Origin: Halalkalicoccus tibetensis
GTDB lineage: Archaea; Halobacteriota; Halobacteria; Halobacteriales; Halalkalicoccaceae
Direction of reading: 5' to 3'
NCBI RefSeq assembly: GCF_037996645.1
Contig: NZ_JBBMXV010000003.1
Span: 558,001 to 622,000 of the forward strand
DNA length: 64,000 nucleotides
The position numbers were made by a program, and so were the translations under genes. Positions 3,274 through 46,813 of the stretch are shown one piece after another. Positions within the stretch are counted from its first letter, which is position 1. Every line of letters starts with the position of its first letter. The notes beneath the pieces were generated by a model. It ran no database searches. It was not told the DNA's origin and worked only from the letters and a program-made list of their open reading frames with translations.

Positions 3274-5180
3274 GTTCTAATATTCGCTCCTTCGTGTTTT
3301 TAAGTTACTGTATTTTCGTTCAATGTCTCAGTTGGATACTGGTGGCAGTGTTCTGGCTCCTCGCATGGCTACAGAGTGAGCTATCCGCGCCGAGGTTCGT
3401 TAAGGGGCCGTGAGTTGAGTTGTGGCAGTGAAAGCCGTTGAATCACCTATAAAACCCTGTCTCGGGATTAATTTCTGGATTCTAACAGATAGAAGATAAT
3501 AAGATAAGAATTAAATTTCTATATAGCCAGATTTAATACAGAGCAAGATAAGAAGTAAATAGCACACAGCGACGGAGGGTCTTCCCCCCCACCAGCGTCT
3601 ACCGACTATAACCCATATCGGTAGACGCAAACCCTTCGTCGTTGTGTGCACCTATTATCATAGCAGCTAGTGGTCACTATGCAATTCTGCCTTGATTAGT
3701 CTACAACAGGAAATGCGGGCGGCCAGTGTGTAGACGATCTTCTATAGTGGCTCATAGAGTGTGATTTCTGTGAACTGTTACTCCTCCTCTGATTTCATTT
3801 CAGATGGGACAATGACATCCGTTCATAGATGGCTGCAATCTTTATCTACAATAGATGACACTCGTTTCATATTCTGGCTATTGTAATAGATAGTAGATTA
3901 AAATTTGGACGGAATAGGAGGAATTAAGTACTACGGGACTGCATTGTCAGTTGGCGACCTGGGTTATATCAGTCGCCTGCTTAGTCGTGGTTGGTCACCG
4001 CTGTCGCTTAGCCTATCCATCCGGATAGGTTTTGAACGAACAGAGTGTTGTAGCCGTCTCTGCTGTCTCTGAGTAGGGCAAACTGGCATAGAGTAGCTCT
4101 GGTTTTGACCCGGTCCTTCTTTGACTCTCTATCTAGAGAACTATGACTGATATTATGTAACGCGCGTTACGCCAGAAAGCATATGCCCTAAGACTAGATA
4201 TCAGTACCTGGCGAGTGCTTCAGGTCTCGCCCAACCGCGGATAGGTGTCTCATGTTGCCCGGGCCTTTTTCGGTCCGGGTTAGCATTCTCATGCTATAGC
4301 AAACTGATAGTTGCGTAGTGATCCCCTGGACAACCGATCAGGATCATTTGGAACAATGGTCATAGGTAGGACTGTCACCAACAAGGACTGGAGTTCGACC
4401 ACTCACAGAGGCTCATTAACGACAGATACCATTATCTTTTACTTGCTTGAGATTGTATTATACATGGGCGCCCGGTTGATCCACCAGCGTCGTCGCACGG
4501 GTGCCCGTTGCATCAGTTCCACTGAGGATGGGAACCGCCAGTCCGGTTCCATCCCCGTGGTTCAGATTAGAAACGGAGTTCGAATACACCCACCACTGTT
4601 CATCTAGCAGTGCTGATCTCGATCAAGACGATTACTGGACCCGTATATTGCAGCGTTTTCGAGCTTGTGTACATGATCGCCTGTGTTTCAGCAGCTCTCT
4701 GATCCCATGGTTGTTCTCGGAGTCTCCTTGCTTCGTCTGCTGGTGCTCCTCTATAGCGGTGCCTCAAGGGCTATGACAACTCTCAGGGGATGGAGGATTA
4801 CTGGAGCGAACGCTGGTGTAGTTGCGTTGAAACTAGCTCGGTAAAAGTCACGCACAGCGATGAGAGGACTATGACATCCCTCGTGTGTTCCCTTGGCTCC
4901 GTCCCGTGAGTTAGCCCTTCTCGCTGTGCGTATCTTAACTAATAATTCTACCTTATTAAATTTAACTATTCTTCACTGTCAGTGCCTGCTATCAGTGGAC
5001 TGTCGTAGTGGTACGTATGCCGCAGGACGGTGTCCGGTACCTTTCCGGTAGGGCAGCCGACTTTCTGTACGATGTCTCTCCCAGTAGCCTTTCACTGCTT
5101 GTACTACTGCCCAGTCAGAGGTCTCTAGTTCGCCATCCAAAAAAGGCTAGAATTGGGCCGGGGGAAGCCGATTTCGCCGT
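3274..5180. other. Gene-poor 1.9-kb region
   Basis: I see no credible gene here. Open frames are short, lack haloarchaeal codon bias and carry no recognisable motif. The stretch holds an AT-rich block (about 3460-3560), a nested inverted repeat (3562-3649), a hairpin around CCTATCC/GGATAGG (about 4012-4032) that resembles one near 43540, and a GC-rich hairpin near 4256-4284 (CCGGGCC/GGTCCGG). It reads as decayed accessory DNA. Confidence 0.6.
3562..3649. repeat. Nested inverted repeat (88 bp)
   Basis: The outer arms are 19 bp (3562-3580 and 3631-3649) and match at 17 of 19 positions; both differences would still pair as G-U in RNA. Inside them is a second, perfect 11-bp repeat GCGTCTACCGA / TCGGTAGACGC (3595-3605 and 3618-3628). 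The whole unit can form a long hairpin or cruciform. It sits in gene-free DNA, so it could be a miniature transposable element, a small structured RNA or a transcription barrier. Confidence 0.7.
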
Positions 5181-5660
5181 CTAAGGCGTGTCTTCGTCGT
5201 CGGCTGCCGGGTCGTCCTCTTCCTCGTCACCCAGGCCGTCTTCCTCGTCGTCCGCGGCCGGGTCGTCCTCGTCGTCACCGAGGCCGTCTTCCTCGTCATC
5301 GGCGGCCGGGTCTTCTTCGTCGTCCGCGGCCGGGTCGTCCTCGGCCGGGTCTTCGTCATCGGCGGCCGGATCTTCTTCATCGTCCGCGGCCGGGTCTTCT
5401 TCGTCGTCCGCGGCCGGATCTTCTTCATCGTCCGCGGCCGGATCTTCTTCGTCGTCCGCGGCCGGGTCGTCCTCGGCCGGATCGTCTTCCATGTCGTCCT
5501 CGGCCGGATCGTCTGCAGCCGGGTCGTCCTCGGCGGGATCCTCCTCGTCGCCTGCGGGATCCTCTTCTTCTTCGCCCTCGTCAGTACATCCTGCGAGCGC
5601 GAAGACGCTTGCTGCACCTGCCGCTTCGACGAACCGTCGTCGGCTGAGTTTCTTTTGCAT
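5181..5660 (-). CDS. Asp/Glu-rich repeat Tat lipoprotein
   Basis: A 159-residue protein starting at the ATG at 5660. Its Tat signal is RRRFVEAAGAASVFALAGC, where the final Cys is a lipobox. The mature part is almost entirely a low-complexity repeat of DPAADDEE/DPAEDD units, encoded by imperfect tandem repeats of GTCCGCGGCCGGGTC-type DNA. It is probably exported folded through Tat and lipid-anchored to the outer face of the membrane as an extremely acidic brush; no enzymatic domain is visible. Its signal peptide is nearly identical to that of the gene at 31177-31788, so the two are paralogs. Length is probably variable through repeat slippage. Long antisense open frames here are artefacts of the repeat. 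Confidence 0.75.
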   Translation of the reverse strand: MQKKLSRRRFVEAAGAASVFALAGCTDEGEEEEDPAGDEEDPAEDDPAADDPAEDDMEDDPAEDDPAADDEEDPAADDEEDPAADDEEDPAADDEEDPAADDEDPAEDDPAADDEEDPAADDEEDGLGDDEDDPAADDEEDGLGDEEEDDPAADDEDTP

Positions 5661-7212: not shown

Positions 7213-7458
7213 TCAAGTAGTACTTTCGCCACGTGGGTCAGTCACCAACTGTACTTCGTATGCATCTGGATGGACTCGTTCTAAATGTCCATGCTCTAAT
7301 AGTCGCCCAACTCTGCTACTTATCCATTGTCGGCTTACGTCTTTAATTTCCTCACTATAGAGATGACGTAATAGATTTGGAGTGGCCCATTCGTGTTTAG
7401 AGAGGAACTCTAGGATCCAGCGGTCCATCTCGTTGAGATCATCGTCTGTTAACGCCAT
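7213..7458 (-). CDS. Small winged-helix DNA-binding protein (module copy A)
   Basis: An 81-residue protein from the ATG at 7458 (MALTDDDLNEMDRWILEFL). The sequence has the pattern of a winged helix-turn-helix: helix 1 (LNEMDRWILEFLSKH), helix 2 and a recognition helix (ISSRVGRLLEHGHLERV), and a hydrophobic wing. It is probably a transcription regulator. It is divergent from the three-gene operon that starts at 7667, so it may control that operon's promoter. A different small winged-helix gene (24337-24558) takes the same position beside module copy B. An upstream in-frame ATG at 7506 exists, but the conserved domain begins at 7458. Confidence 0.7.
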   Translation of the reverse strand: MALTDDDLNEMDRWILEFLSKHEWATPNLLRHLYSEEIKDVSRQWISSRVGRLLEHGHLERVHPDAYEVQLVTDPRGESTT

Positions 7459-7555
7459 ACTCGATTGGTTGTGGATTACTATACACCCCCGTAAGACTAT
7501 CGTCATCCCAGCCTTAATTTACTTCTGACTATCTACTTCCGAGATAGACATCCGT

Positions 7556-7564
7556 AAACTATAT
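7556..7564 (+). promoter_or_regulatory. Candidate TATA box for module A operon
   Basis: AAACTATAT lies about 28-30 bases before 7592, where the structured leader begins. That is the usual archaeal distance between TATA box and transcription start, so the transcript would begin at the base of the leader's outer stem. Confidence 0.45.
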
Positions 7565-7591
7565 CTTTCTGGTCTTCATAACACGTGGACA

Positions 7592-7666
7592 AGAAGCGCG
7601 TGATGCCATAGCAAAATTATGGCCGCGTGGTAGGACACGCGACCGCGCTTCTGGCTACCAGAAGCA
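7592..7666 (+). ncRNA. Structured 75-nt leader RNA (module copy A)
   Basis: The leader can fold as a three-way junction. The outer stem pairs AGAAGCGCG (7592-7600) with CGCGCTTCT (7644-7652). One inner hairpin is GCCATA/TATGGC (7605-7610/7618-7623) and the other is CGCGTG/CACGCG (7624-7629/7636-7641). A competing hairpin pairs GCTTCTGG (7647-7654) with CCAGAAGC (7658-7665). It uses the same 3' strand as the outer stem and ends one base before the ATG at 7667, so the two folds cannot coexist at full length. Copy B (24695-24769) has the same length and architecture, with compensatory changes in both inner helices. A translational switch or attenuator is the natural inference; no ligand is evident. 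Confidence 0.7.
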
Positions 7667-7873
7667 ATGAAGATTAATCACTCAACCCCAGAAAACAGTA
7701 TCGCCTTAACAACTAGTCTGCAGTACATCACCGGCCCCCATTGGGAACCGCCAACAATCCCCAACGCCACTACGTACTGGCGCTGCAGTTCTTGCGGTCG
7801 CGAATCCATCCGTGAACGGGATCTCCATCGAACCACGTTCCATGCCCCGAGCTGCGAGGTCCAGGAATGCTGA
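7667..7873 (+). CDS. Short Cys-rich protein, first gene of module A
   Basis: A 68-residue protein. Its C-terminal half has CSSC (residues about 43-46), two histidines, and a CEVQEC pair (63-68), a spacing that suggests a single zinc site. The family is not one I can name. The N-terminal segment (NHSTPENSIAL...TGPHWEPPT) is strongly conserved with the copy B protein (24770-24967). The start codon directly follows the leader hairpin and has no Shine-Dalgarno sequence. Its stop overlaps the next start in ATGCTGA, so translation of the second gene is probably coupled. A nucleic-acid or protein-binding adaptor is plausible, unproven. Confidence 0.75.
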   Translation: MKINHSTPENSIALTTSLQYITGPHWEPPTIPNATTYWRCSSCGRESIRERDLHRTTFHAPSCEVQEC

Positions 7874-8199
7874 TCACTGCGCCTGCCGAGCAGTTCCTCG
7901 CTGGCTACCAGCTTCGAGAAGAGCGCTGTAGCTACTGCAAAACCGCCCTCCAGGAGGGCCATTCAGTCAGTGCCTATGCGGTTCAGTATGCAGGCGACGA
8001 TGTTTGGTCGATCCCACGGGTCTACTGTCGCGACTGCCAATCGACCATTACTGAGCCCACACTCGGCGCAACCGAACTACTGGCCACGGGATACCTTGGC
8101 TGTACGATGGATGTCGCAACCCAACAGAGTACACTGACGCTTCTCGGCATCGAACAGATCATGAAGAGTCCAGCGGAGGAGGGCCATGCAACACTTTAA
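7867..8199 (+). CDS. Zinc-ribbon-like protein, second gene of module A
   Basis: A 110-residue protein with two CxxC knuckles: CSYC (about 23-26) and CRDC (about 54-57). This is the pattern of a zinc ribbon. The intervening stretch GHSVSAYAVQYAGDDVWSIP is nearly identical in copy B. Function unknown; it could bind DNA, RNA or the coiled-coil partner encoded next. The start overlaps the first gene by 7 nt. The 3' end carries GGAGGAGG, which serves as the ribosome-binding site of the third gene while encoding the conserved EEGHATL tail. Confidence 0.75.
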   Translation: MLITAPAEQFLAGYQLREERCSYCKTALQEGHSVSAYAVQYAGDDVWSIPRVYCRDCQSTITEPTLGATELLATGYLGCTMDVATQQSTLTLLGIEQIMKSPAEEGHATL

Positions 8200-8800
8200 G
8201 GACCGTGAGGCGACTGAGGCCCGCCTTGATCGAATCGAGCGCGAGATGCTTCGATCCGACTCCCTCGAGATGGCAGCCGTCCGTCGCTTACTCCATGGCC
8301 TGAGTGAAACGAATGGCGAGGCTGACCCTGTTGCAAAGGTCGACGCGATCGTCGAGCGCATCGAGACTCTCGAGACCGAAGTCAGTTCCTTGCGCGCCCA
8401 ACTGCGTGCCCAGCGTACCTCTCAAAAGGCCACCAAGAAGGAGCGTGCGAAACGACTGGCACGCAACGAAGTGCTTCGTCAGATCGATCGTGGGACGAAT
8501 CCGATCGGTGAGGGTGGGGCCGTCGACGTCCCGACAATGATCACGATGGGATACGGGCTAGGTGCCGAGTTCACTCACAAGACCGTCGGCGATGCGTTCG
8601 AAGCCCTAGCGACTGAGTGGGACGCATTCGAGCTCCAGGCTGGCAGCGGCACGAAGGAAGGGGCGAACAAACGGCTGGTCGCAACGAACAACGCGATCCC
8701 TGAGGTGCTCTGGCAGGCCTACGACAGCGAGACCAATATGGAAGCGACTCGGGAGGACACTGTCGCTGAAAGTAGCGACCGAAATAACGGGGGCGACTGA
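8186..8800 (+). CDS. Coiled-coil protein, third gene of module A
   Basis: A 204-residue protein. Residues about 1-95 form a strongly charged helical region with heptad character (EARLDRIEREMLRSDSLEMA and ERIETLETEVSSLRAQLRAQ), then a basic patch (KATKKERAKRLARNEVLR). A conserved globular part follows (about 100-185, INPIGEGGAVDVPT-like and KTVGDAFEALATEWDAFELQ). No known catalytic motif is visible. It is very similar to 25283-25903. It starts 14 nt inside the preceding gene with a strong GGAGGAGG ribosome-binding site. The last codons overlap the left arm of a conserved inverted repeat. A DNA- or RNA-binding scaffold is plausible. Confidence 0.75.
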   Translation: MQHFKDREATEARLDRIEREMLRSDSLEMAAVRRLLHGLSETNGEADPVAKVDAIVERIETLETEVSSLRAQLRAQRTSQKATKKERAKRLARNEVLRQIDRGTNPIGEGGAVDVPTMITMGYGLGAEFTHKTVGDAFEALATEWDAFELQAGSGTKEGANKRLVATNNAIPEVLWQAYDSETNMEATREDTVAESSDRNNGGD

Positions 8801-8801
8801 G

Positions 8802-8843
8802 ATGGCAGCATTCGAGCCAGTCGTCCCACCGCCTCCCTCCTAG
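8802..8843 (+). CDS. Conserved micro-ORF with PVVPPP core (module A)
   Basis: A 13-codon frame starts one base after the stop of the coiled-coil gene and encodes MAAFEPVVPPPPS. Copy B has the equivalent frame at 25905-25982 encoding MTVFQPVVPPPLP and more. The match M-x-x-F-(E/Q)-PVVPPP, at the same position relative to the preceding stop, suggests selection on the peptide. In copy A a TAG ends the frame early; reading through it would keep it aligned with copy B. No promoter or ribosome-binding site of its own is visible. It could be a translated peptide or a coincidence of conserved structured DNA. Confidence 0.45.
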   Translation: MAAFEPVVPPPPS

Positions 8844-8890
8844 TCCACTGCCACCGACGCACTACGTATTGTAATTAATATGGCAGTAGC

Positions 8891-8972
8891 GGTGGGTCTA
8901 CCGCCTCGCACCGCATCGCATGTCGTGTGCGAGGCGAGAGCCACCCTGCTCCTCGCTACTTTCACTGAAAGT
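8891..8972 (+). terminator. Conserved 3' hairpin pair (module A)
   Basis: The left arm starting at 8891 pairs with 8928-8945: CGCCTCGCA/TGCGAGGCG forms a 9-bp stem, extended by TCT/AGA and GGTGG/CCACC across a small internal loop. The 17-nt apical loop is nearly the same in copy B. A second small hairpin follows (ACTTTC act GAAAGT, 8958-8972). The segment 8952-8972 is also an imperfect inverted copy (17 of 21) of 8759-8779, in the end of the coiled-coil gene. It may act as a terminator, a 3'-end RNA element or a recombination site. Confidence 0.6.
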
Positions 8973-9530
8973 GAGTCCGGATCCTTTTCTTGGCTTATGC
9001 GATATCGACATTCCGTGGCAAGCCTCCTGATACGTACTCGGGCTCTTGAACCCGCTAACTGTCTTTCCTCTATCGGTGTGCTGAGTAAGTCAGGTTGTAC
9101 TGGGGACGTTTGATACGATTATTGGAGCGAACGTTACGATCCGCTACTCTGGAAGAGTGCCAGTATCCTCATACACCCCTGGATAACTCTGCTTCCCCAT
9201 CCATCGGAGATATAAAAGAACAAATGATATTAGCAAAAGGCAGGAACTCTTCGCCGTCGTATAAATACGATCCACTGGGAAATATTTTTTAGTATCTGTA
9301 TCAGAAGATATATATGTGCAGACGATATAGTTGTGGAAGAGTTACCAATTTAAGGTGATGAGAAATGATTACGAATGGACAAGTATATACGGCCCCATGA
9401 TAATAGCTTGGATAGAATTCGCTGATACACATGTCAAACTATAGCTTGGTGATTGGACTCATACGCTGGATCTCGTCCGTTAGCGGGTCAGCGTTGGGCC
9501 AATGCCTGAAATACCACGGAGGTCGATTCG
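8973..9530. other. Intergenic region before glycan island
   Basis: About 560 bases without a credible gene, becoming AT-rich from about 9210. The segment just before 9531 holds a clear Shine-Dalgarno sequence GGAGGT (9519-9524). No repeat or RNA gene recognised. Confidence 0.5.
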
Positions 9531-24336: not shown

Positions 24337-24558
24337 CTATGAAATCCACTCACTACCTTTGTTCGTCAGCTTGTACAGTCCTGTCTCTTGGTGATGATAG
24401 CTAACTAAACCGTACGCGCGTAGCCACTTCAGTCGTTCTCCGATGTAATTTTCGTGTTTGTCGATTTGGTCCGCTAATGATCCTCTCGTTTCTCGCCCAT
24501 CAGAGAGTAAGATGAGGATTTTTTTGTCAGTGTCGTTGAGGTCGGAGGGTGCATCCAT
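24337..24558 (-). CDS. Small winged-helix protein (module copy B)
   Basis: A 73-residue protein, LNDTDKKILILLSDGRETRG then KWLRAYGLVSYHHQETGLYK and a Gly/Thr wing: a winged helix of the kind common in haloarchaeal viruses and plasmids. It is divergent from the three-gene operon at 24770, just as the unrelated-looking winged-helix gene 7213-7458 is divergent from copy A. It is probably a local transcription regulator. The two regulators share fold and position but little sequence, so either they diverged fast or were exchanged. Confidence 0.75.
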   Translation of the reverse strand: MDAPSDLNDTDKKILILLSDGRETRGSLADQIDKHENYIGERLKWLRAYGLVSYHHQETGLYKLTNKGSEWIS

Positions 24559-24694: not shown

Positions 24695-24769
24695 AAGCGC
24701 GGAGTGCCAGTAGGTAGAACTGGCCCGGTGGTATCACACCGGACCGCGCTTCCCCGATCAGGAGAAGCA
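24695..24769 (+). ncRNA. Structured 75-nt leader RNA (module copy B)
   Basis: Same length and fold as 7592-7666. The outer stem is AAGCGCGG (24695-24702) with CCGCGCTT (24744-24751). Hairpin 1 is GCCAG/CTGGC (24706-24710/24720-24724). Hairpin 2 is CCGGTG/CACCGG (24725-24730/24737-24742). Against copy A, hairpin 2 has two swapped pairs (G-C to C-G and C-G to G-C) and hairpin 1 has T-A changed to G-C; all three keep pairing. The competing start-proximal hairpin is also kept: GCTTC (24748-24752) with GAAGC (24764-24768), plus an inner CC/GG. The ATG follows one base later. Confidence 0.7.
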
Positions 24770-25296: not shown

Positions 25297-25903
25297 AAGT
25301 CCCACAGAGGAGACGACTGAAGCCCGCCTCGACCGACTTGAACGCGAGATGCTCCGATCCGATTCCCTGGAGATGGCCGCCGTCCGTAGACTGCTCCACG
25401 GGCTGAGTGACACCGAAAGCGAGACTGACCCTATCGCGAAGGTTGACGCGATCGTTGAGCGAATCGAAGACCTCGAAACGGAAGTCACCCACTTGCGAGC
25501 CCAGCTGCGCGCCCAGCGCACTCACCAGAACGGCACCAAAAAAGAGCGCGCCAAACGCCTCGCGCGCAATGACGTCCTTCGACAGATCGACCAGGGGACG
25601 AACCTGATCGGCGAGGGCGGGGCCGTCGATGTGCCAACGGTGATCACGATGGGCCGTGGCCTCGACCTTGAGCTCACCCACAAGACCGTCGGCGACGCCT
25701 TCCAGTCGCTCACCACTGAGTGGAACGCCTTCAAACTCCAGGCGGGGAGCGGTACGAAAGAGGGCACAAACAAACGGCTGGTTGCAACGAACGACGAGAT
25801 CCCCGAGGCACTCTGGCAGGTCTACGAGGCCGAAACGGGTCAGGAAGTGATCGAAGAGAGCACTTTCGTCGAAAGTAGCGACCAGACAAACGAGGGCCAC
25901 TAG
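25283..25903 (+). CDS. Coiled-coil protein, third gene of module B
   Basis: A 206-residue protein from the ATG at 25283, homologous over its whole length to 8186-8800. Heptad-like stretches TEARLDRLEREMLRSDSLEM and VERIEDLETEVTHLRAQLRA are followed by a basic patch and a conserved globular segment (GEGGAVDVPTVITMG, HKTVGDAFQSLTTEWNAFKL, GTNKRLVATN). The start is fixed by GGAGGAGG about 6 bases upstream and by the identical 14-nt overlap with gene 2. A longer upstream frame (25241) merely reads into gene 2. The last codons contain ACTTTC gtc GAAAGT, the left arm of a long inverted repeat. Confidence 0.75.
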   Translation: MPHSESPTEETTEARLDRLEREMLRSDSLEMAAVRRLLHGLSDTESETDPIAKVDAIVERIEDLETEVTHLRAQLRAQRTHQNGTKKERAKRLARNDVLRQIDQGTNLIGEGGAVDVPTVITMGRGLDLELTHKTVGDAFQSLTTEWNAFKLQAGSGTKEGTNKRLVATNDEIPEALWQVYEAETGQEVIEESTFVESSDQTNEGH

Positions 25904-25904
25904 A

Positions 25905-25982
25905 ATGACCGTTTTTCAGCCCGTCGTCCCGCCGCCATTGCCCCACTCGTCTTCTCGTCGCTACCGCATTGCTAGTAACTAA
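25905..25982 (+). CDS. Conserved micro-ORF with PVVPPP core (module B)
   Basis: A 25-codon frame starting one base after the coiled-coil stop, MTVFQPVVPPPLPHSSS and onward, ending in TAA. Its first 11 residues match the copy A micro-ORF (8802-8843) as M-x-x-F-(E/Q)-PVVPPP. The rest is Ser/Arg-rich. It could encode a short peptide that docks on a partner through its polyproline stretch, but expression is unproven. Confidence 0.45.
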   Translation: MTVFQPVVPPPLPHSSSRRYRIASN

Positions 25983-25995
25983 TTTCTCGATAGCA

Positions 25996-26076
25996 GTGGG
26001 TCTACCGCCTCGCACCGCATCGTATGCCGAATGCGAGGCGGGACCCACCCTGCTTCTCGCTACTTTCGCCGAAAGT
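25996..26076 (+). terminator. Conserved 3' hairpin pair (module B)
   Basis: GTGGGTC plus CCGCCTCGCA (25996-26014, with a TA bulge) pairs with TGCGAGGCGG plus GACCCAC (26032-26048), giving 17 base pairs around a 17-nt loop that is almost the same as in copy A. ACTTTC gcc GAAAGT (26062-26076) follows. The segment 26056-26076 is an inverted copy of 25862-25882 with 19 of 21 positions matching, so the micro-ORF and hairpin are enclosed by inverted repeats. Confidence 0.6.
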
Positions 26077-26463
26077 GTCCCGCTGGAATCATCCCCCTCT
26101 ACTAGAAGTGATTTCGATGAGAGTTCAGTCTCATCACGGAAAGTACACCGCCACCACCGGAAAATTGAAATCAATTGCATCGAACCCGTAGTCAGAAGCC
26201 CACATGGTATCATCTCCCACGACTTCACAACCGATCCGATCGTTCCGGATGGGGTCCCAGGATCGCATCCGACGGAACATGTGGGCGATCATCGTCCCAC
26301 GAGACGACAGCGAGAAGCGCAACGAGATGGTCGATACGCTGATCAACTAACCGGTAGCGCGGAGTCCCCTTCCTCAAGCGCGAGCGGTAGGGAGGGGAGG
26401 AGCGCGTTCGTATAGCTGGGCATTTACGTTACCTATAAATAGCCACGAGGCTACATTGAACAC
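26077..26463. other. Intergenic region with TnpB-type end hairpin
   Basis: No intact gene. A short plus-strand frame ending at 26350 reads GSQDRIRRNMWAIIVPRDDS, a possible fragment of an unidentified gene. CCCCTTCC (26366-26373) pairs with GGGAGGGG (26390-26397) around CTCAAGCGCGAGCGGTA; the loop resembles the CTCAAGCGCGAG found at the decayed TnpB end near 55872, so this is probably an orphan right end of an older TnpB element. Confidence 0.45.
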
Positions 26464-27717
26464 GTGGCAGACGACTACGTGCGTCGGACGGCAATCACCC
26501 GCCTCTCAGTAGATGGTAAGCAACGCGACTTACTCGAAGACACCATCGCCGAGTGGAAACGGGGCTGCCAAATCGCCACAGACCTCGCGTGGGGACGGTG
26601 CAACACCAAGAGTGACGTGCAACCCCTCGCCTACGATTCTGTGCGCGAAGATACCGACCTCGGTAGTCAGCACGCGATTCTCGCCACCCACCAAGCTGCA
26701 CAAGCCATCACCGGCTGTATCGAACGCCAGTCGAAGGGTAAGAAGGTCAGCAAGCCAACGTTCACCGCTCCGACCGTGAAGTACGATACGCGGACGATGA
26801 CGGTGTTCGATGACGATACCGTGTCCCTCTCTACAACGGAGAGTCGGGTCCGGTGTCCACTCGACCTTCCTGACGCCGACGATGGCTACCAGCGACAGTA
26901 TCTCGACTCGGACGAATGGAGTGTTACGGAAAGTACGCTTACCGCCCGCGACGGCGAGTTCTTCTTGCATATCGGCTTCCGCCGGTACAAGAACGATACC
27001 GAACGGAACACCGCCGAGGACGGAACGGTCCTCGGGATTGACCTCGGTATCGAAAACCTCGCCGTCACCAGCACCGCCTACTTCCTCAGCGGACGAGAGC
27101 TAACCCACGACCTCCGTGAGTTCGAGAAGGTACGCGCCGGGTTGCAACAGACCGGAACTCGAAGCGCCCACCGGACGCTCGTACAGTCGAGTGGTCGGGA
27201 ACTTCGCTACGTCCGCGACGTTCTCCACCGAGCGTCGAACGCGCTGATAGACGAAGCACTCCGCTACGACTGCGACGTAATTGCGTTCGAGAACCTAACC
27301 CACATCCGCGACCGAACCGGTGCATCGTGGGGTCACAAGTGGGCGTTCCGAACACTCTACGAATACGTCGAGTACAAAGCCGAATCGGTCGGTATCTCGG
27401 TGAAGCAAGTCGGGTCGGCGTACACGTCCCAACGATGTGCCGAGTGTGGATTCACGGCAGACGAGAATCGACCGTCGCGTAACGACTTCCGGTGCGCGAA
27501 GTGCGGGTCGGGAGCGAACGCGGACTACAACGCGGCGAAGAACATCGGTATGCGGTACGTCCGTCGAGGCCAACAGTCGTCTCGGCGGACGGGTGACAGT
27601 CAGCTCGCCCTAAAGTCTGGAACGGTGACGCCGAACGCCGGATTTACCGGCTACCCTGATGGGTTCGAGGCCGAGTTCACGGACAAGCTCCACCCTCAAC
27701 ACGCCGAAGGCGTGTAG
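26464..27717 (+). CDS. tnpB: TnpB RNA-guided nuclease (IS200/IS605, IS1341-type), intact
   Basis: A 417-residue TnpB starting at a GTG. The RuvC-like catalytic centre is complete: GIDLGIENLA (first Asp, about residue 198), VIAFENL (Glu, about 278), and NADYNAAKNIG (last Asp, about 360). A zinc ribbon CAEC...CAKC lies between the last two. TnpB is the nuclease that uses an RNA from the element's right end to cut matching DNA and so promote retention of the transposon. No TnpA transposase accompanies it, as usual for IS1341-type elements. The 3' end sits beside an interrupted regulator gene at 27742-27919. It is the only intact TnpB among six loci here. Confidence 0.93.
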   Translation: MADDYVRRTAITRLSVDGKQRDLLEDTIAEWKRGCQIATDLAWGRCNTKSDVQPLAYDSVREDTDLGSQHAILATHQAAQAITGCIERQSKGKKVSKPTFTAPTVKYDTRTMTVFDDDTVSLSTTESRVRCPLDLPDADDGYQRQYLDSDEWSVTESTLTARDGEFFLHIGFRRYKNDTERNTAEDGTVLGIDLGIENLAVTSTAYFLSGRELTHDLREFEKVRAGLQQTGTRSAHRTLVQSSGRELRYVRDVLHRASNALIDEALRYDCDVIAFENLTHIRDRTGASWGHKWAFRTLYEYVEYKAESVGISVKQVGSAYTSQRCAECGFTADENRPSRNDFRCAKCGSGANADYNAAKNIGMRYVRRGQQSSRRTGDSQLALKSGTVTPNAGFTGYPDGFEAEFTDKLHPQHAEGV

Positions 27718-28903: not shown

Positions 28904-29052
28904 TTACCTATCTATCCTGGGCGCTGAAGTCGTTGGTCTCGAACCTCCGAATTCGGAAAATACGCACGCGATGATTTGATTTAACTCTATTTAGATGTTC
29001 GAATCAGAGAGCAGTGGCAGGTATATCGACGCGAGAGGACGAACGAGCTCTC

Positions 29053-29208
29053 TCAGAACGCAGTCCAGTCAACGACCTGGACGTCGTCGATTCGTTCGAA
29101 GTGGTCGACGTTCGCCGTGAGGACAGCGAGCCGTTCGGTACGAGCGGCCGCACCGATATAGACGTCGTGGAGGTCGTGTAACGACTCTCCCTGATCCCGT
29201 AAACCCAT
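29053..29208 (-). pseudogene. C-terminal remnant of a VapC-like PIN toxin
   Basis: Minus strand reads GLRDQGESLHDLHDVYIGAA, then ARTERLAVLTANVDHFERID, ending DVQVVDWTAF and a stop. That is the last third of a PIN domain (Asp in LHDVYIG and the VLTANVDHF strand). Its start is replaced by the 3' part of a dead orc1/cdc6 gene, so a deletion joined two genes. Confidence 0.75.
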
Positions 29209-30349
29209 TCTGGATCGAAGGCCGTCCGAACCTGCTTTGCACGGCCTTCATCTCCCTTCGATTCGATCCACGTTTCGACTAAGCCCATCGTTTCGAGCTC
29301 CGTAATGACGGTCCGTACCGCTCGGTCTCCGAGCTCGAGTTCAGCGAGGTGCTTGCTCTCCTGGATCTCGGCGGCCGTAACGGGCTGGACGATCTCTCCG
29401 CTGGATTCCCTCCAGTTCGTGACGCCCGCGAGTACTGCGAAATGCTTCACAGGCAGTGAGAGCAGCTTCTCGATCGTCGCCTCTCGCTCGGTTTCCTCAA
29501 GGTTTGTGTCGAGACAGTCAGTAGTCACCTGCTCGAGCCCACGGTCGTTTGCCGTCTCGCCCGCCCGTCGAAAGAGCCGAAGCGCTCGACGCGCGTCGCC
29601 CCAATGAAAGGCTGCCTTATGAGCTCCGTACCGAAAGGCTTCTTCGGGCACCGCCCCGTCGCGAAACGCGCGCTCGACGCGTGGCTGCAGAATGGCCTTG
29701 AGCGTATCACGTCCGTAGGGCGGAAAGAAGAGTTCCGTGTCGCCGAGGACGCTCCCGACTCGGCTGTCGAGTCGGAGATCGACTGTCACCAGCTCGTTGC
29801 TGAGCAGCCAACACGAGAGGTGAATATCTCGGGCAAGCTTGCTCTCTCCTCGGAGGAGCCGATAGAAGAACTCGTTGGGATCATAGTTAGTGTCGTGTCT
29901 GACATGGTCGATCTCATCGAGGATCAACACGGTCCACTCGGGATAGTCCTCAAGAGCGGTCCAGATTCCCTTAAAGACGCCGTCAAGGCCTTCATATGAC
30001 TTCTTTCGGTCGCCGGTCAGTTCGAGATGGATCTCGTTGGCCGCGCTGAAGATCGTCCGACATTCCTTGAGATTGACGTACTCGACGGCAAGCTCCTCGG
30101 TGCGGGCAGCGACCTCCTCAGCGACCCGTCGCGTAGTCATGGTTTTCCCGTCCCGGGTGGTCCGTGAATCGAGACGGTCGGTGGGAGATACCCCTCGTGG
30201 ATGCTATTGAGAATCGTTGCGAGTTCGCGTTCCTGTTTATCGCGAGCAACGATTTCATCGGCGGGAGCCAACGGATCGAGCGCGCTCTTGTCGGCGAAGA
30301 CGCTGTCGGTCGGGCTCGTTTCAGCGAAGAGATCGTCGTATTTGCTCAT
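29209..30349 (-). pseudogene. Decayed Orc1/Cdc6 replication initiator
   Basis: The frame from the ATG at 30349 (MSKYDDLFAETSPTDSVFAD) runs to GPPGTGK and then stops, because one base is missing in the A-run of the Walker A lysine-threonine codons near 30140. The remainder continues in another frame (TRRVAEEVAARTEELAVEYV) with Walker B VLILDEIDH and the initiator motif LRLDSRVGSVLGDTELFFPP, to FDPEW, where it switches to a PIN-toxin remnant. It is very similar to the intact initiator at 45516-46727. The single-base loss could be a sequencing artefact, but the altered 3' end is not. Confidence 0.88.
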
Positions 30350-31176: not shown

Positions 31177-31788
31177 CTAGTTGACCCATCTCAGATGATA
31201 TCCGCGCAGGGTATCGTCGATCCCCTCAATATCCTCTTCATCGATGTCGTCTTCGTCAATCCCCTCAATATCCTCTTCATCAATGTCGTCCTCGTCGATC
31301 TCCTCAATATCCTCTTCATCGATGTCGTCCTCGTCAATCCCTTCAATATCCTCTTCGTCGATCTCGTCCTCATTAGCATCGTCTTCATCGGTGTCATCCT
31401 CATTTCCGTCAGCACCGCCTCCAGTATCCTCATTAGCGTTGTCTTCATCAGTGTCATCCTCGTCTTCATCACCATTGTCTCCACCATCCTCCTCGTCGAT
31501 GTTGTCCTCGTCTTCGTCACTATCACCCTCATTAGCGTCATCCTCATTGGTACCGGTTCCATCCTCCTCAGGAGGAGTTTCTTCGTCGTCATTGGAAAGG
31601 TCCTCTTCCATCTCGTCTTCGTCCGTCTCGTCAGCTGCCGGATCCTCTTCCATGTCATCTTCGGCAGGATCCTCCCCTCCCTCGTCGGAATCTTCTCCTC
31701 CGTTCTCATCAGTACATCCCGCGAATGCGAAGACGCTTGCTGCACCTGCGGCTTCAACGAATCGTCGTCGATTGATTTTCCATTGCAT
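31177..31788 (-). CDS. Asp/Glu-rich repeat Tat lipoprotein (paralog)
   Basis: A 203-residue protein starting at the ATG at 31788, MQWKINRRRFVEAAGAASVF followed by AFAGCTDENG: Tat signal plus lipobox. The mature part is low-complexity Asp/Glu, and its end consists of 13-residue units such as IEGIDEDDIDEED encoded by 39-bp tandem DNA repeats (about 31216-31360). The C-terminal tail DTLRGYHLRWVN leaves the repeat and may be a frameshift product. The signal peptide matches 5181-5660 almost exactly. Probably an exported acidic surface brush; no catalytic domain. Confidence 0.72.
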   Translation of the reverse strand: MQWKINRRRFVEAAGAASVFAFAGCTDENGGEDSDEGGEDPAEDDMEEDPAADETDEDEMEEDLSNDDEETPPEEDGTGTNEDDANEGDSDEDEDNIDEEDGGDNGDEDEDDTDEDNANEDTGGGADGNEDDTDEDDANEDEIDEEDIEGIDEDDIDEEDIEEIDEDDIDEEDIEGIDEDDIDEEDIEGIDDTLRGYHLRWVN

Positions 31789-31830
31789 GGGCTTGGTCCC
31801 ACTTACTCTATCACTACCAGACCTTATCAA

Positions 31831-45515: not shown

Positions 45516-46727
45516 TCAATCCCCGCCCGATGAAAGGGTATCCGACGCTTCGAGATACGGGTCGGCTGCCTCGCGGACCCATTGTGGATCGAAGGTGGTC
45601 TGAATCTGCTTCACACGGCCCTCATCTCCCTTTGAGTCGATCCATGTCTCAACGAGACCCATGGTTTCGAGCTCTGTGATGACAGTGCGTATCGCCCGAT
45701 CTCCGAGATCGAGTTGGGTGAGTGTACCGTCTTCTTGAATCTTAGCAGCCGTGACAGGTTGGACGATCTCTCCTGTTTGGGTCTGTTTCCAATCAGTGAC
45801 ACCCACGAGTACAGTGAAATGCTTCGGGGGCAATGAGAGCAGCTTCTCGATGGTCGCTTCCCGCTCCGTTTCCTCGATATTCGCGTCGAGACAGTCAATC
45901 GTCACCTGATCGAGCCCACGATCATTGGCCATTTCCCCTGCCCGTCGGAAAAGCCGAAGCGCTCGCCGTGCGTCACCCCAATGAAAGGCCGCCTTCCGAA
46001 CGCCATGCTCGAAGGAGTCCTCGGGCACTGCTCCGTCGCAAAACGCTCGCTCGATGCGGGGCTCCAGAATAGCTCTCAACGTATCGCGCCCATAGGGCGG
46101 GAAGAACAGCTCCTCATCGCCCAGGACGCTCTCGACGCGGCTGTCGAGTCGGAGATCGACCGTCACCAGCTCGTTACTGAGCAGCCAACATGAGAGGTGA
46201 ATATCTCGGACAAGCTTGCCTTCCCCACGCAACAGCCGATAGAAGAACTCGTTGGGATCGTAGTTGGTATCGTGTTGAACGTGGTCGATCTCATCGAGAA
46301 GGAGTACAGTCCACTCGGGATAGTCAGCCAGCTCCGTCCAGATCCCCTCGAAGACGCCGTCAAGTCCCTCATAGGCCCCACGTTTCTCACCGGTGAGTGC
46401 AAAATGGATCTCATTAGCCGCACTAAAGATCGATCGGCAGTCCTTGAGATTGACGTACTCGACGGCCAGGAGATCAGTCCGGGCAGCGAACTCGCTGGTG
46501 ATTCGCCGTGTAGTCATAGTCTTACCCGTCCCGGGTGGCCCATGGATCGAAACGGTCGGCGGTAGATATCCTTCGTGAACGCCGTTGAGAATCGTCGCGA
46601 GAGTACGCTCTTGATTCTCACGAGCGATGATTTCGTCGGCTTCGGCCAGCGGATCAAGCACGTCCTTCTGGGCGAAGACGCTGTCAGTCGGTGCCGTTTC
46701 GTCGAAGAGGTCGTCGTACTTACTCAT
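45516..46727 (-). CDS. Orc1/Cdc6-family replication initiator, intact
   Basis: A 403-residue AAA+ initiator from the ATG at 46727 (MSKYDDLFDETAPTDSVFAQ). Walker A is GPPGTGKT (about residue 61), Walker B VLLLDEIDH (about 132), and the initiator-specific region is VDLRLDSRVESVLGDEELFF (about 190). A C-terminal winged helix (about 305-390) binds origin DNA. It probably starts replication of this replicon or of an integrated plasmid. It is short compared with chromosomal Orc1 proteins and belongs to the small type common on haloarchaeal plasmids. The longer frame to 46808 includes the promoter region. A dead copy lies at 29209-30349. Confidence 0.9.
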   Translation of the reverse strand: MSKYDDLFDETAPTDSVFAQKDVLDPLAEADEIIARENQERTLATILNGVHEGYLPPTVSIHGPPGTGKTMTTRRITSEFAARTDLLAVEYVNLKDCRSIFSAANEIHFALTGEKRGAYEGLDGVFEGIWTELADYPEWTVLLLDEIDHVQHDTNYDPNEFFYRLLRGEGKLVRDIHLSCWLLSNELVTVDLRLDSRVESVLGDEELFFPPYGRDTLRAILEPRIERAFCDGAVPEDSFEHGVRKAAFHWGDARRALRLFRRAGEMANDRGLDQVTIDCLDANIEETEREATIEKLLSLPPKHFTVLVGVTDWKQTQTGEIVQPVTAAKIQEDGTLTQLDLGDRAIRTVITELETMGLVETWIDSKGDEGRVKQIQTTFDPQWVREAADPYLEASDTLSSGGD

Positions 46728-46813
46728 TGTACTGGTAGGGAAGGGAGGGGGGTTTGTTTTCTCTGCGCCCAGCGGAACTACATGTCTGTATGTTAGCGCA
46801 GGCAGCATAAAAG
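46728..46813 (-). promoter_or_regulatory. orc1/cdc6 promoter and 5' leader
   Basis: CTTTTATG on the minus strand (46806-46813) is a plausible TATA box; transcription would start near 46780, leaving a leader of about 50 nt. The leader contains CAGCGGAACTACATGTCTGT (plus-strand sense, about 46773-46792), which is also kept upstream of the dead copy at about 30380. The conservation suggests a regulatory role. Confidence 0.5.

Follow-up and report, generated by a model that had tools for sequence, protein, structure and literature searches.

A widespread structured leader with alternative pairings at the start codon may act as a translational switch in virus- and plasmid-derived operons of haloarchaea

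The 64,000-nucleotide stretch of Halalkalicoccus tibetensis DNA analyzed here (the window; positions 558,001 to 622,000 of contig NZ_JBBMXV010000003.1) contains two copies, A and B, of a structured leader that stops one base short of a start codon. In copy A, the leader is followed by three open reading frames (ORFs) and a conserved 3′ structured element, and each leader has a divergently oriented gene for a small winged-helix protein of the RepR type on its upstream side (Table 1). The copy A regulator had no match above the cut-off in Pfam, and its true start may be internal (MALTDDD...). Membership of an Rfam family was rejected: no family of the Rfam 15 covariance models reached its gathering score anywhere in the window, the leader itself gave just one chance miRNA match (E 0.11), and the 3′ element gave none. 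One haloarchaeal homolog (L046) consists of a SWIM finger and a C-terminal domain resembling ORF1, which ties the module to SWIM proteins of haloarchaeal viruses (phrog_17897). Neither the 204-aa protein nor one SWIM fragment nor the L100 query found a match among plasmids and phages.

Table 1. Features of the two leader copies and their neighborhoods (window coordinates)
Feature	Position	Strand	Basis or remarks
Winged-helix (RepR-type) gene, copy A, small	7213..7506	-	divergent; profile match 4.5e-25
TATA-like box AAACTATATC	7556..7565	+	predicted transcription start about 7590 (+/-3)
P1 5′ strand AGAAGCGCG	7592..7600	+	string search and by eye; P1 covariation
P2 hairpin	7605..7623	+	GCCATA 7605-7610 / TATGGC 7618-7623; string search, covariation
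P3 hairpin	7624..7641	+	CGCGTG 7624-7629 / CACGCG 7636-7641, 6-nt loop; 3′ arm by string search, 5′ arm by eye
P1 3′ strand CGCGCTTCT	7644-7652	+	9 bp with 7592-7600
Common middle strand CGCGCTTCTGG	7644..7654	+	P1 3′ strand 7644-7652 plus P4 5′ strand 7647-7654
P4 5′ strand GCTTCTGG	7647-7654	+	followed by loop CTA 7655-7657
P4 3′ strand CCAGAAGC	7658..7665	+	1 base short of start codon (A 7666, ATG 7667)
ORF1, 68 aa, Zn-finger-like	7667..7873	+	related to C-terminal part of haloarchaeal SWIM protein (L046)
Conserved motif GAAAACAGTATCG in ORF1	7691..7703 (+24..+36)	+	retained across unrelated genes
ORF2, 110 aa, Zn-ribbon-like	7867..8199	+	CxxC pairs
ORF3, 204 aa, predicted coiled coil	8186..8800	+	
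Conserved 3′ structured element of module	8871..8973	+	inverted repeat together with ORF3 end
Winged-helix gene, copy B	24337..24558	-	divergent
Copy B leader	24695..24768	+	string search, folding; ATG 24770
Copy B P1	24695-24702/24744-24751	+	
Copy B P2	24706-24711/24719-24724	+	
Copy B P3	24725-24730/24737-24742	+	
Copy B P4	24748-24755/24761-24768	+	one C-A mismatch

The copy A leader occupies 7592–7665. Helix P1 closes a three-way junction with P2 and P3, and its 3′ strand overlaps the first strand of P4, the hairpin next to the start codon. A sequence-only reading of the locus had described these as mutually exclusive folds. String search and inspection by eye found the proposed pairings base for base, and the shared strand can indeed pair in P1 or in P4. 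The exclusivity is partial: the two helices truly compete for only about 5 nt in the middle strand, and folding of copy B showed P4 to be compatible with upper P1, P2, and P3. The exchange would therefore be a branch migration between lower P1 and P4, in which upper P1, P2, and P3 may persist. When each state was forced in copy A, the computed ensemble energies were equal (−35.8 and −35.9 kcal/mol), and a 98-nt stretch folded better than its shuffles (z −4.1). All folding energies given here are model values at 1 M NaCl, and cells have molar KCl. As had been claimed, copy B keeps both P1 and P4, the latter with a single C-A mismatch.

The three-gene module is present in 10 copies in six of seven Halalkalicoccus genomes. 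All 10 copies have both P1 and P4, together with the junction, an invariant GCTTC middle strand, and GAAGCAATG. In an alignment of eight copies, 91.7% of the junction cells were paired, with covariation of 0.236 versus 0.101 in shuffled alignments, and RNAalifold recovered the junction fold unprompted from the first eight copies. The seventh pair of P4 is exchanged from G-C to C-G within the genus. State I (closed P1) was preferred by about 6 kcal/mol in two of the 10 copies (L006 and L015). The absence of a Shine-Dalgarno sequence, noted earlier for the first gene, holds for copy A and for L003 (H. paucihalophilus), but the other eight copies carry GGAG inside the 3′ strand of P4.

Homology between module copies ends sharply (L003, L006, L007, L015, and copy A of the window), and related copies have only one flank in common (A and L006 upstream; L003 and L015 downstream), which looks as though module and neighbors had been swapped around. 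The 3′ structured region (window 8740–8973 and 25880–26077) is conserved and contains a self-complementary inverted repeat (ACTTTCGNCGAAAGTAGCGA ... TCGCTACTTTCGNCGAAAGT), whose motif occurs as one extra single copy in the same genome (C3:636540). Given these sharp boundaries, the module, with the 5′ leader at one end and the 3′ inverted repeat at the other, is a candidate mobile cassette. Genes judged by eye to be Orc1/Cdc6-like lie near several module copies (window 29004–30140 and 45516–46808; also L006, L008, L014, and L015), which suggests plasmid- or virus-derived replicon regions. A TnpB-like gene, also identified by eye, is located directly 3′ of copy B (26464–27717). Elsewhere in the window, two lipoprotein-like ORFs (5181–5660 and 31177–31830) have similar signal regions and long Asp/Glu-rich tandem repeats.

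A covariance model (R1) built from the Halalkalicoccus copies was searched at a threshold of E 0.1. It matched 152 of 392 haloarchaeal genomes, in 58 of 86 genera, and its matches in other genera exclude a module confined to Halalkalicoccus. The training set contained GAAGCAATG, so these matches are biased toward that strand. With 80 further loci added, 83 matches were full length, and a second model (R2) was built from these; at E 1e-4, it matched 60 of 116 haloarchaeal genomes (31 of 45 genera). Among 197 genomes sampled across the phylum, 12 were positive, all haloarchaeal and of the same order. The leader is also found in six IMG/VR contigs, in Halorubrum tailed viruses, in BJ1, and in H. 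jeotgali plasmids, plasmid 3 of strain B3 among them; an R2 search of HF2 and HVTV-1 found none. No earlier description was found in Rfam or in a literature search that took in work on phiH and phiCh1, the original 1992–94 phiH papers lying outside its scope. We are highly confident that the leader structure is real and widespread; the initial observation is correct and much larger in extent than stated.

Conservation of the junction was measured on 82 distinct leaders. In P1–P3, 94.5% of cells were paired, a value biased upward because the alignment was fitted to the model, compared with 76.8% after shuffling and 36–50% when strands were slid. Compensatory changes were seen at 20 of the 21 pairs, and covariation was 0.472 versus 0.158 in shuffled alignments. 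The sequence of P2 drifts freely while its pairing is kept. Among non-Watson-Crick cells, G-U outnumbers A-C (102 versus 32), indicating that the folding molecule is the sense RNA. The loops and junction are mostly variable.

The test of P4 was restricted to leaders with a start-proximal strand other than GAAGC. In 28 distinct leaders of this type, that strand fitted the middle strand of the same leader at 5.55 of 6 positions, versus 4.44 ± 0.12 when partners were permuted, and none of 10,000 permutations did as well. The result was the same for 14 leaders less than 70% identical (0 of 5,000 permutations), and the six non-GAAGC leaders of the <70%-identity set gave 33 of 5,000. Pairs have been exchanged in L045 (GGGG/CCCC), L119 (GGTCTTG/CAAGACC), L111 (GTCCT/AGGAC), and virus OP630575 (GCTGTC/GACAGC). 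P1 overlaps P4 in the middle strand by a mean of 5.1 of the 6 P4 nucleotides. Covariation thus maintains the pairings of all three strands, which bears out the proposal of shared-strand alternatives reaching the start codon. Departures from pairing in P4 are mainly A-C (25, versus 4 G-U), so it is under looser constraint than P1–P3. The two states are no more than 3 kcal/mol apart in 67 of 117 leaders; the median gap is 2 kcal/mol, with closed P1 preferred. GGAG occurs in just 28 of the 117, which rules out Shine-Dalgarno sequestration as the general mechanism. Most leaders have no such sequence, so the P4 helix abuts the AUG itself, unlike in switches that bury a Shine-Dalgarno sequence.

Across the 117 leaders, a conserved TATA box is located at −31 to −27 relative to P1, about 29 nt upstream. 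The spacing from TATA to transcription start was calibrated on the mapped start of phiH1 transcript T4. Both T4 and the conserved TATA box so far place the expected start at the 5′ boundary of the outer helix, rather than downstream of it, where the sequence-only reading had held that a switch would be untenable. The annotated start codon coincides exactly with the leader end in virus OP630575 and the H. jeotgali plasmids. In BJ1 ORF7 (L193, record 3547–3600), the annotated Val start falls within the leader; this start appears to be wrong, and the likely true one is ATG 3598, where the leader ends. Conservation extends into the coding sequence as far as +36 (GAAAANNGTAYCG; G at +36 in 95%). 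It persists when each protein cluster contributes a single leader. Third codon positions are about as conserved as the others, which suggests a nucleic-acid motif, and the +24 to +36 stretch is kept although the proteins are unrelated. Inspection by eye for pairing of the 5′ end with the ACTAC motif at +6 revealed no consistent partner. The downstream proteins fall into 26 clusters, including SWIM zinc fingers, small Zn-like proteins, HNH nucleases, an integrase, and a DNA methylase. They represent at least 20 unrelated families, many without zinc motifs, and this diversity makes the earlier suggestion that zinc-binding products feed back on the leader unlikely.

A divergent RepR-type winged-helix gene precedes the leader at 95 of 115 loci, a count that measures recurrence at that place, since the profile was trained on such genes. 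Within the 5-kb loci, 65 of the 78 matches to the profile occupy the divergent slot. Repressor activity is established just for phiH and phiCh1 (PMC4284463). In known viruses, such a repressor maintains dormancy. In phiH1, the mapped start of the early lytic transcript T4 (34556; L196:3057) lies opposite RepR, and a weak R2 match (E 0.012) begins 3 nt past it, at L196:3060. The phiCh1 match (E 0.0005) is located between ORF48 (Rep) and ORF49. Both viruses resemble the window in having a divergent region between repressor and early operon, a TATA box, a P1-P2-P3 fold of putative common origin, and the coding motif. In phiH1, the mapped start is at the 5′ edge of the junction, whereas that of the window is predicted from its TATA box. 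The two viruses differ in their weak match to the model and their longer leader, in which extra hairpins follow and the AUG is about 65 nt farther on, away from P4. Together with their strong preference for P1, this marks them as distant variants and indicates that an AUG-proximal P4 is not universal. Regions of the lambda type also have a repressor gene divergent from the first operon, an analogy already drawn for phiH (PMC4284463); here, the early transcript additionally has a conserved structured leader. The class I and II intergenic repeats of haloviruses HF1 and HF2 (PMC7230728, PMC8707807) are likewise conserved and associated with promoters. Unlike the leader, they are AT-rich, are 58 and 29 bp long, and have been described as promoters, and HF2 has no R2 match.

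We lean toward the view that the element is a bistable leader at the 5′ end of operons derived from viruses or plasmids, placed opposite a repressor, and a translational switch is its best reading on the sequence evidence. Translation would probably be set by covering or freeing the start codon. The leader, about 80 nt, would form the 5′ end of the first transcript and face the divergent winged-helix repressor gene, in the position of the phiH1 T4 promoter opposite RepR. With P1 closed, the start codon would be free (ON); with the middle strand shifted to P4, the ribosome landing site would be covered (OFF). Because P1 is the first of the two to form during transcription, nascent RNA would start in the ON state. 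Any loss of the 5′ strand, be it through capture by a protein or an antisense RNA, through trimming, or through transcription starting a few bases downstream, would turn the leader OFF, so that the extreme 5′ strand would serve as the handle. Such a leader would add a translational layer on top of repressor-controlled transcription. Synthetic leaders that mask the Shine-Dalgarno sequence and AUG regulate expression in Haloferax (PMC8241225), which makes the proposed mode workable. Rather more tentatively, and with the balance slightly against it, we suggest that the strand exchange constitutes a second, translational layer of the decision between dormant and active states in haloarchaeal viruses and their remnants, re-used throughout the class before mobile-element genes of many unrelated kinds.

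Also conceivable, if unlikely, is a structured 5′ untranslated region that acts constitutively: its junction would stabilize the 5′ end or serve to recruit the ribosome or a host protein, P4 would be a minor alternative, and no switching would occur. The strongest covariation lies in P1–P3, state I is preferred by the median of 2 kcal/mol, departures in P4 are A-C mismatches, and phiH1 and phiCh1 retain the junction and not an AUG-proximal P4, all as this explanation would have it. A mere by-product, however, has no need of the covariation between start-proximal and middle strands seen in the 28 non-GAAGC leaders and in the non-redundant set. Quite improbable, in our judgment, is a leader that serves as the target of a trans-acting partner, for example an antisense RNA with cleavage of the double strand or an RNA-binding protein encoded by virus or host, which captures the extreme 5′ strand and opens P1, the P1/P4 exchange reporting the event. 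The 5′ extremity of the transcript is formed by the first strand of P1, the variable loops offer no evident small-molecule pocket, and there is a precedent in phiH, in which an antisense RNA directs processing of the early transcript T1 (PMC4284463). That RNA targets T1 and not T4, however; no conserved antisense promoter was identified near the leaders, the divergent promoter points away from the leader, toward the regulator gene, and no universal trans factor is known.

The palindromes might instead act in DNA, as operators of the divergent regulator or as recombination sites. P3 resembles an operator dyad and the regulator gene adjoins it, module boundaries in Halalkalicoccus are sharp and the flanks swapped, and the coding sequence contains a conserved motif. 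This explanation is very doubtful given the excess of G-U over A-C in the stems, the free variation of P2 while paired, and a promoter upstream of every stem; nor would an operator have any use for a three-strand exchange at the start codon. Translational riboswitches and thermosensors, such as the synthetic theophylline switch in Haloferax (PMC8241225), resemble the leader in having a shared strand and one state that covers the start region, and at the level of structure the leader does place an alternative helix there; unlike them, it has neither a highly conserved, aptamer-like ligand-binding core nor a known ligand. A metabolite or metal riboswitch, such as the zinc sensor suggested earlier, is scarcely credible despite the bistable shape and the Zn-motif proteins downstream at many loci, because loops and junction are mostly variable in the 82 leaders, the downstream genes are unrelated and non-metabolic, and no Rfam riboswitch matches.

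In archaea, hardly any natural RNA switch has been established, with one riboswitch demonstrated by experiment (PMC8241225), and control of the phiH/phiCh1 lysogeny region has so far been discussed mainly in terms of repressors and an antisense RNA. The leader, present in about half of the sampled haloarchaeal genomes and mostly beside a RepR-type gene, provides a defined RNA part for early gene expression in archaeal viruses and proviruses, and possibly a level, so far undescribed, at which RNA controls virus-like genes. It can guide annotation of first operons and their true start codons, as in BJ1 ORF7. If the switch reading is true, these leaders would count among the first known cases of a natural RNA decision device in archaeal viruses and would provide natural start-codon switches for haloarchaeal genetics.
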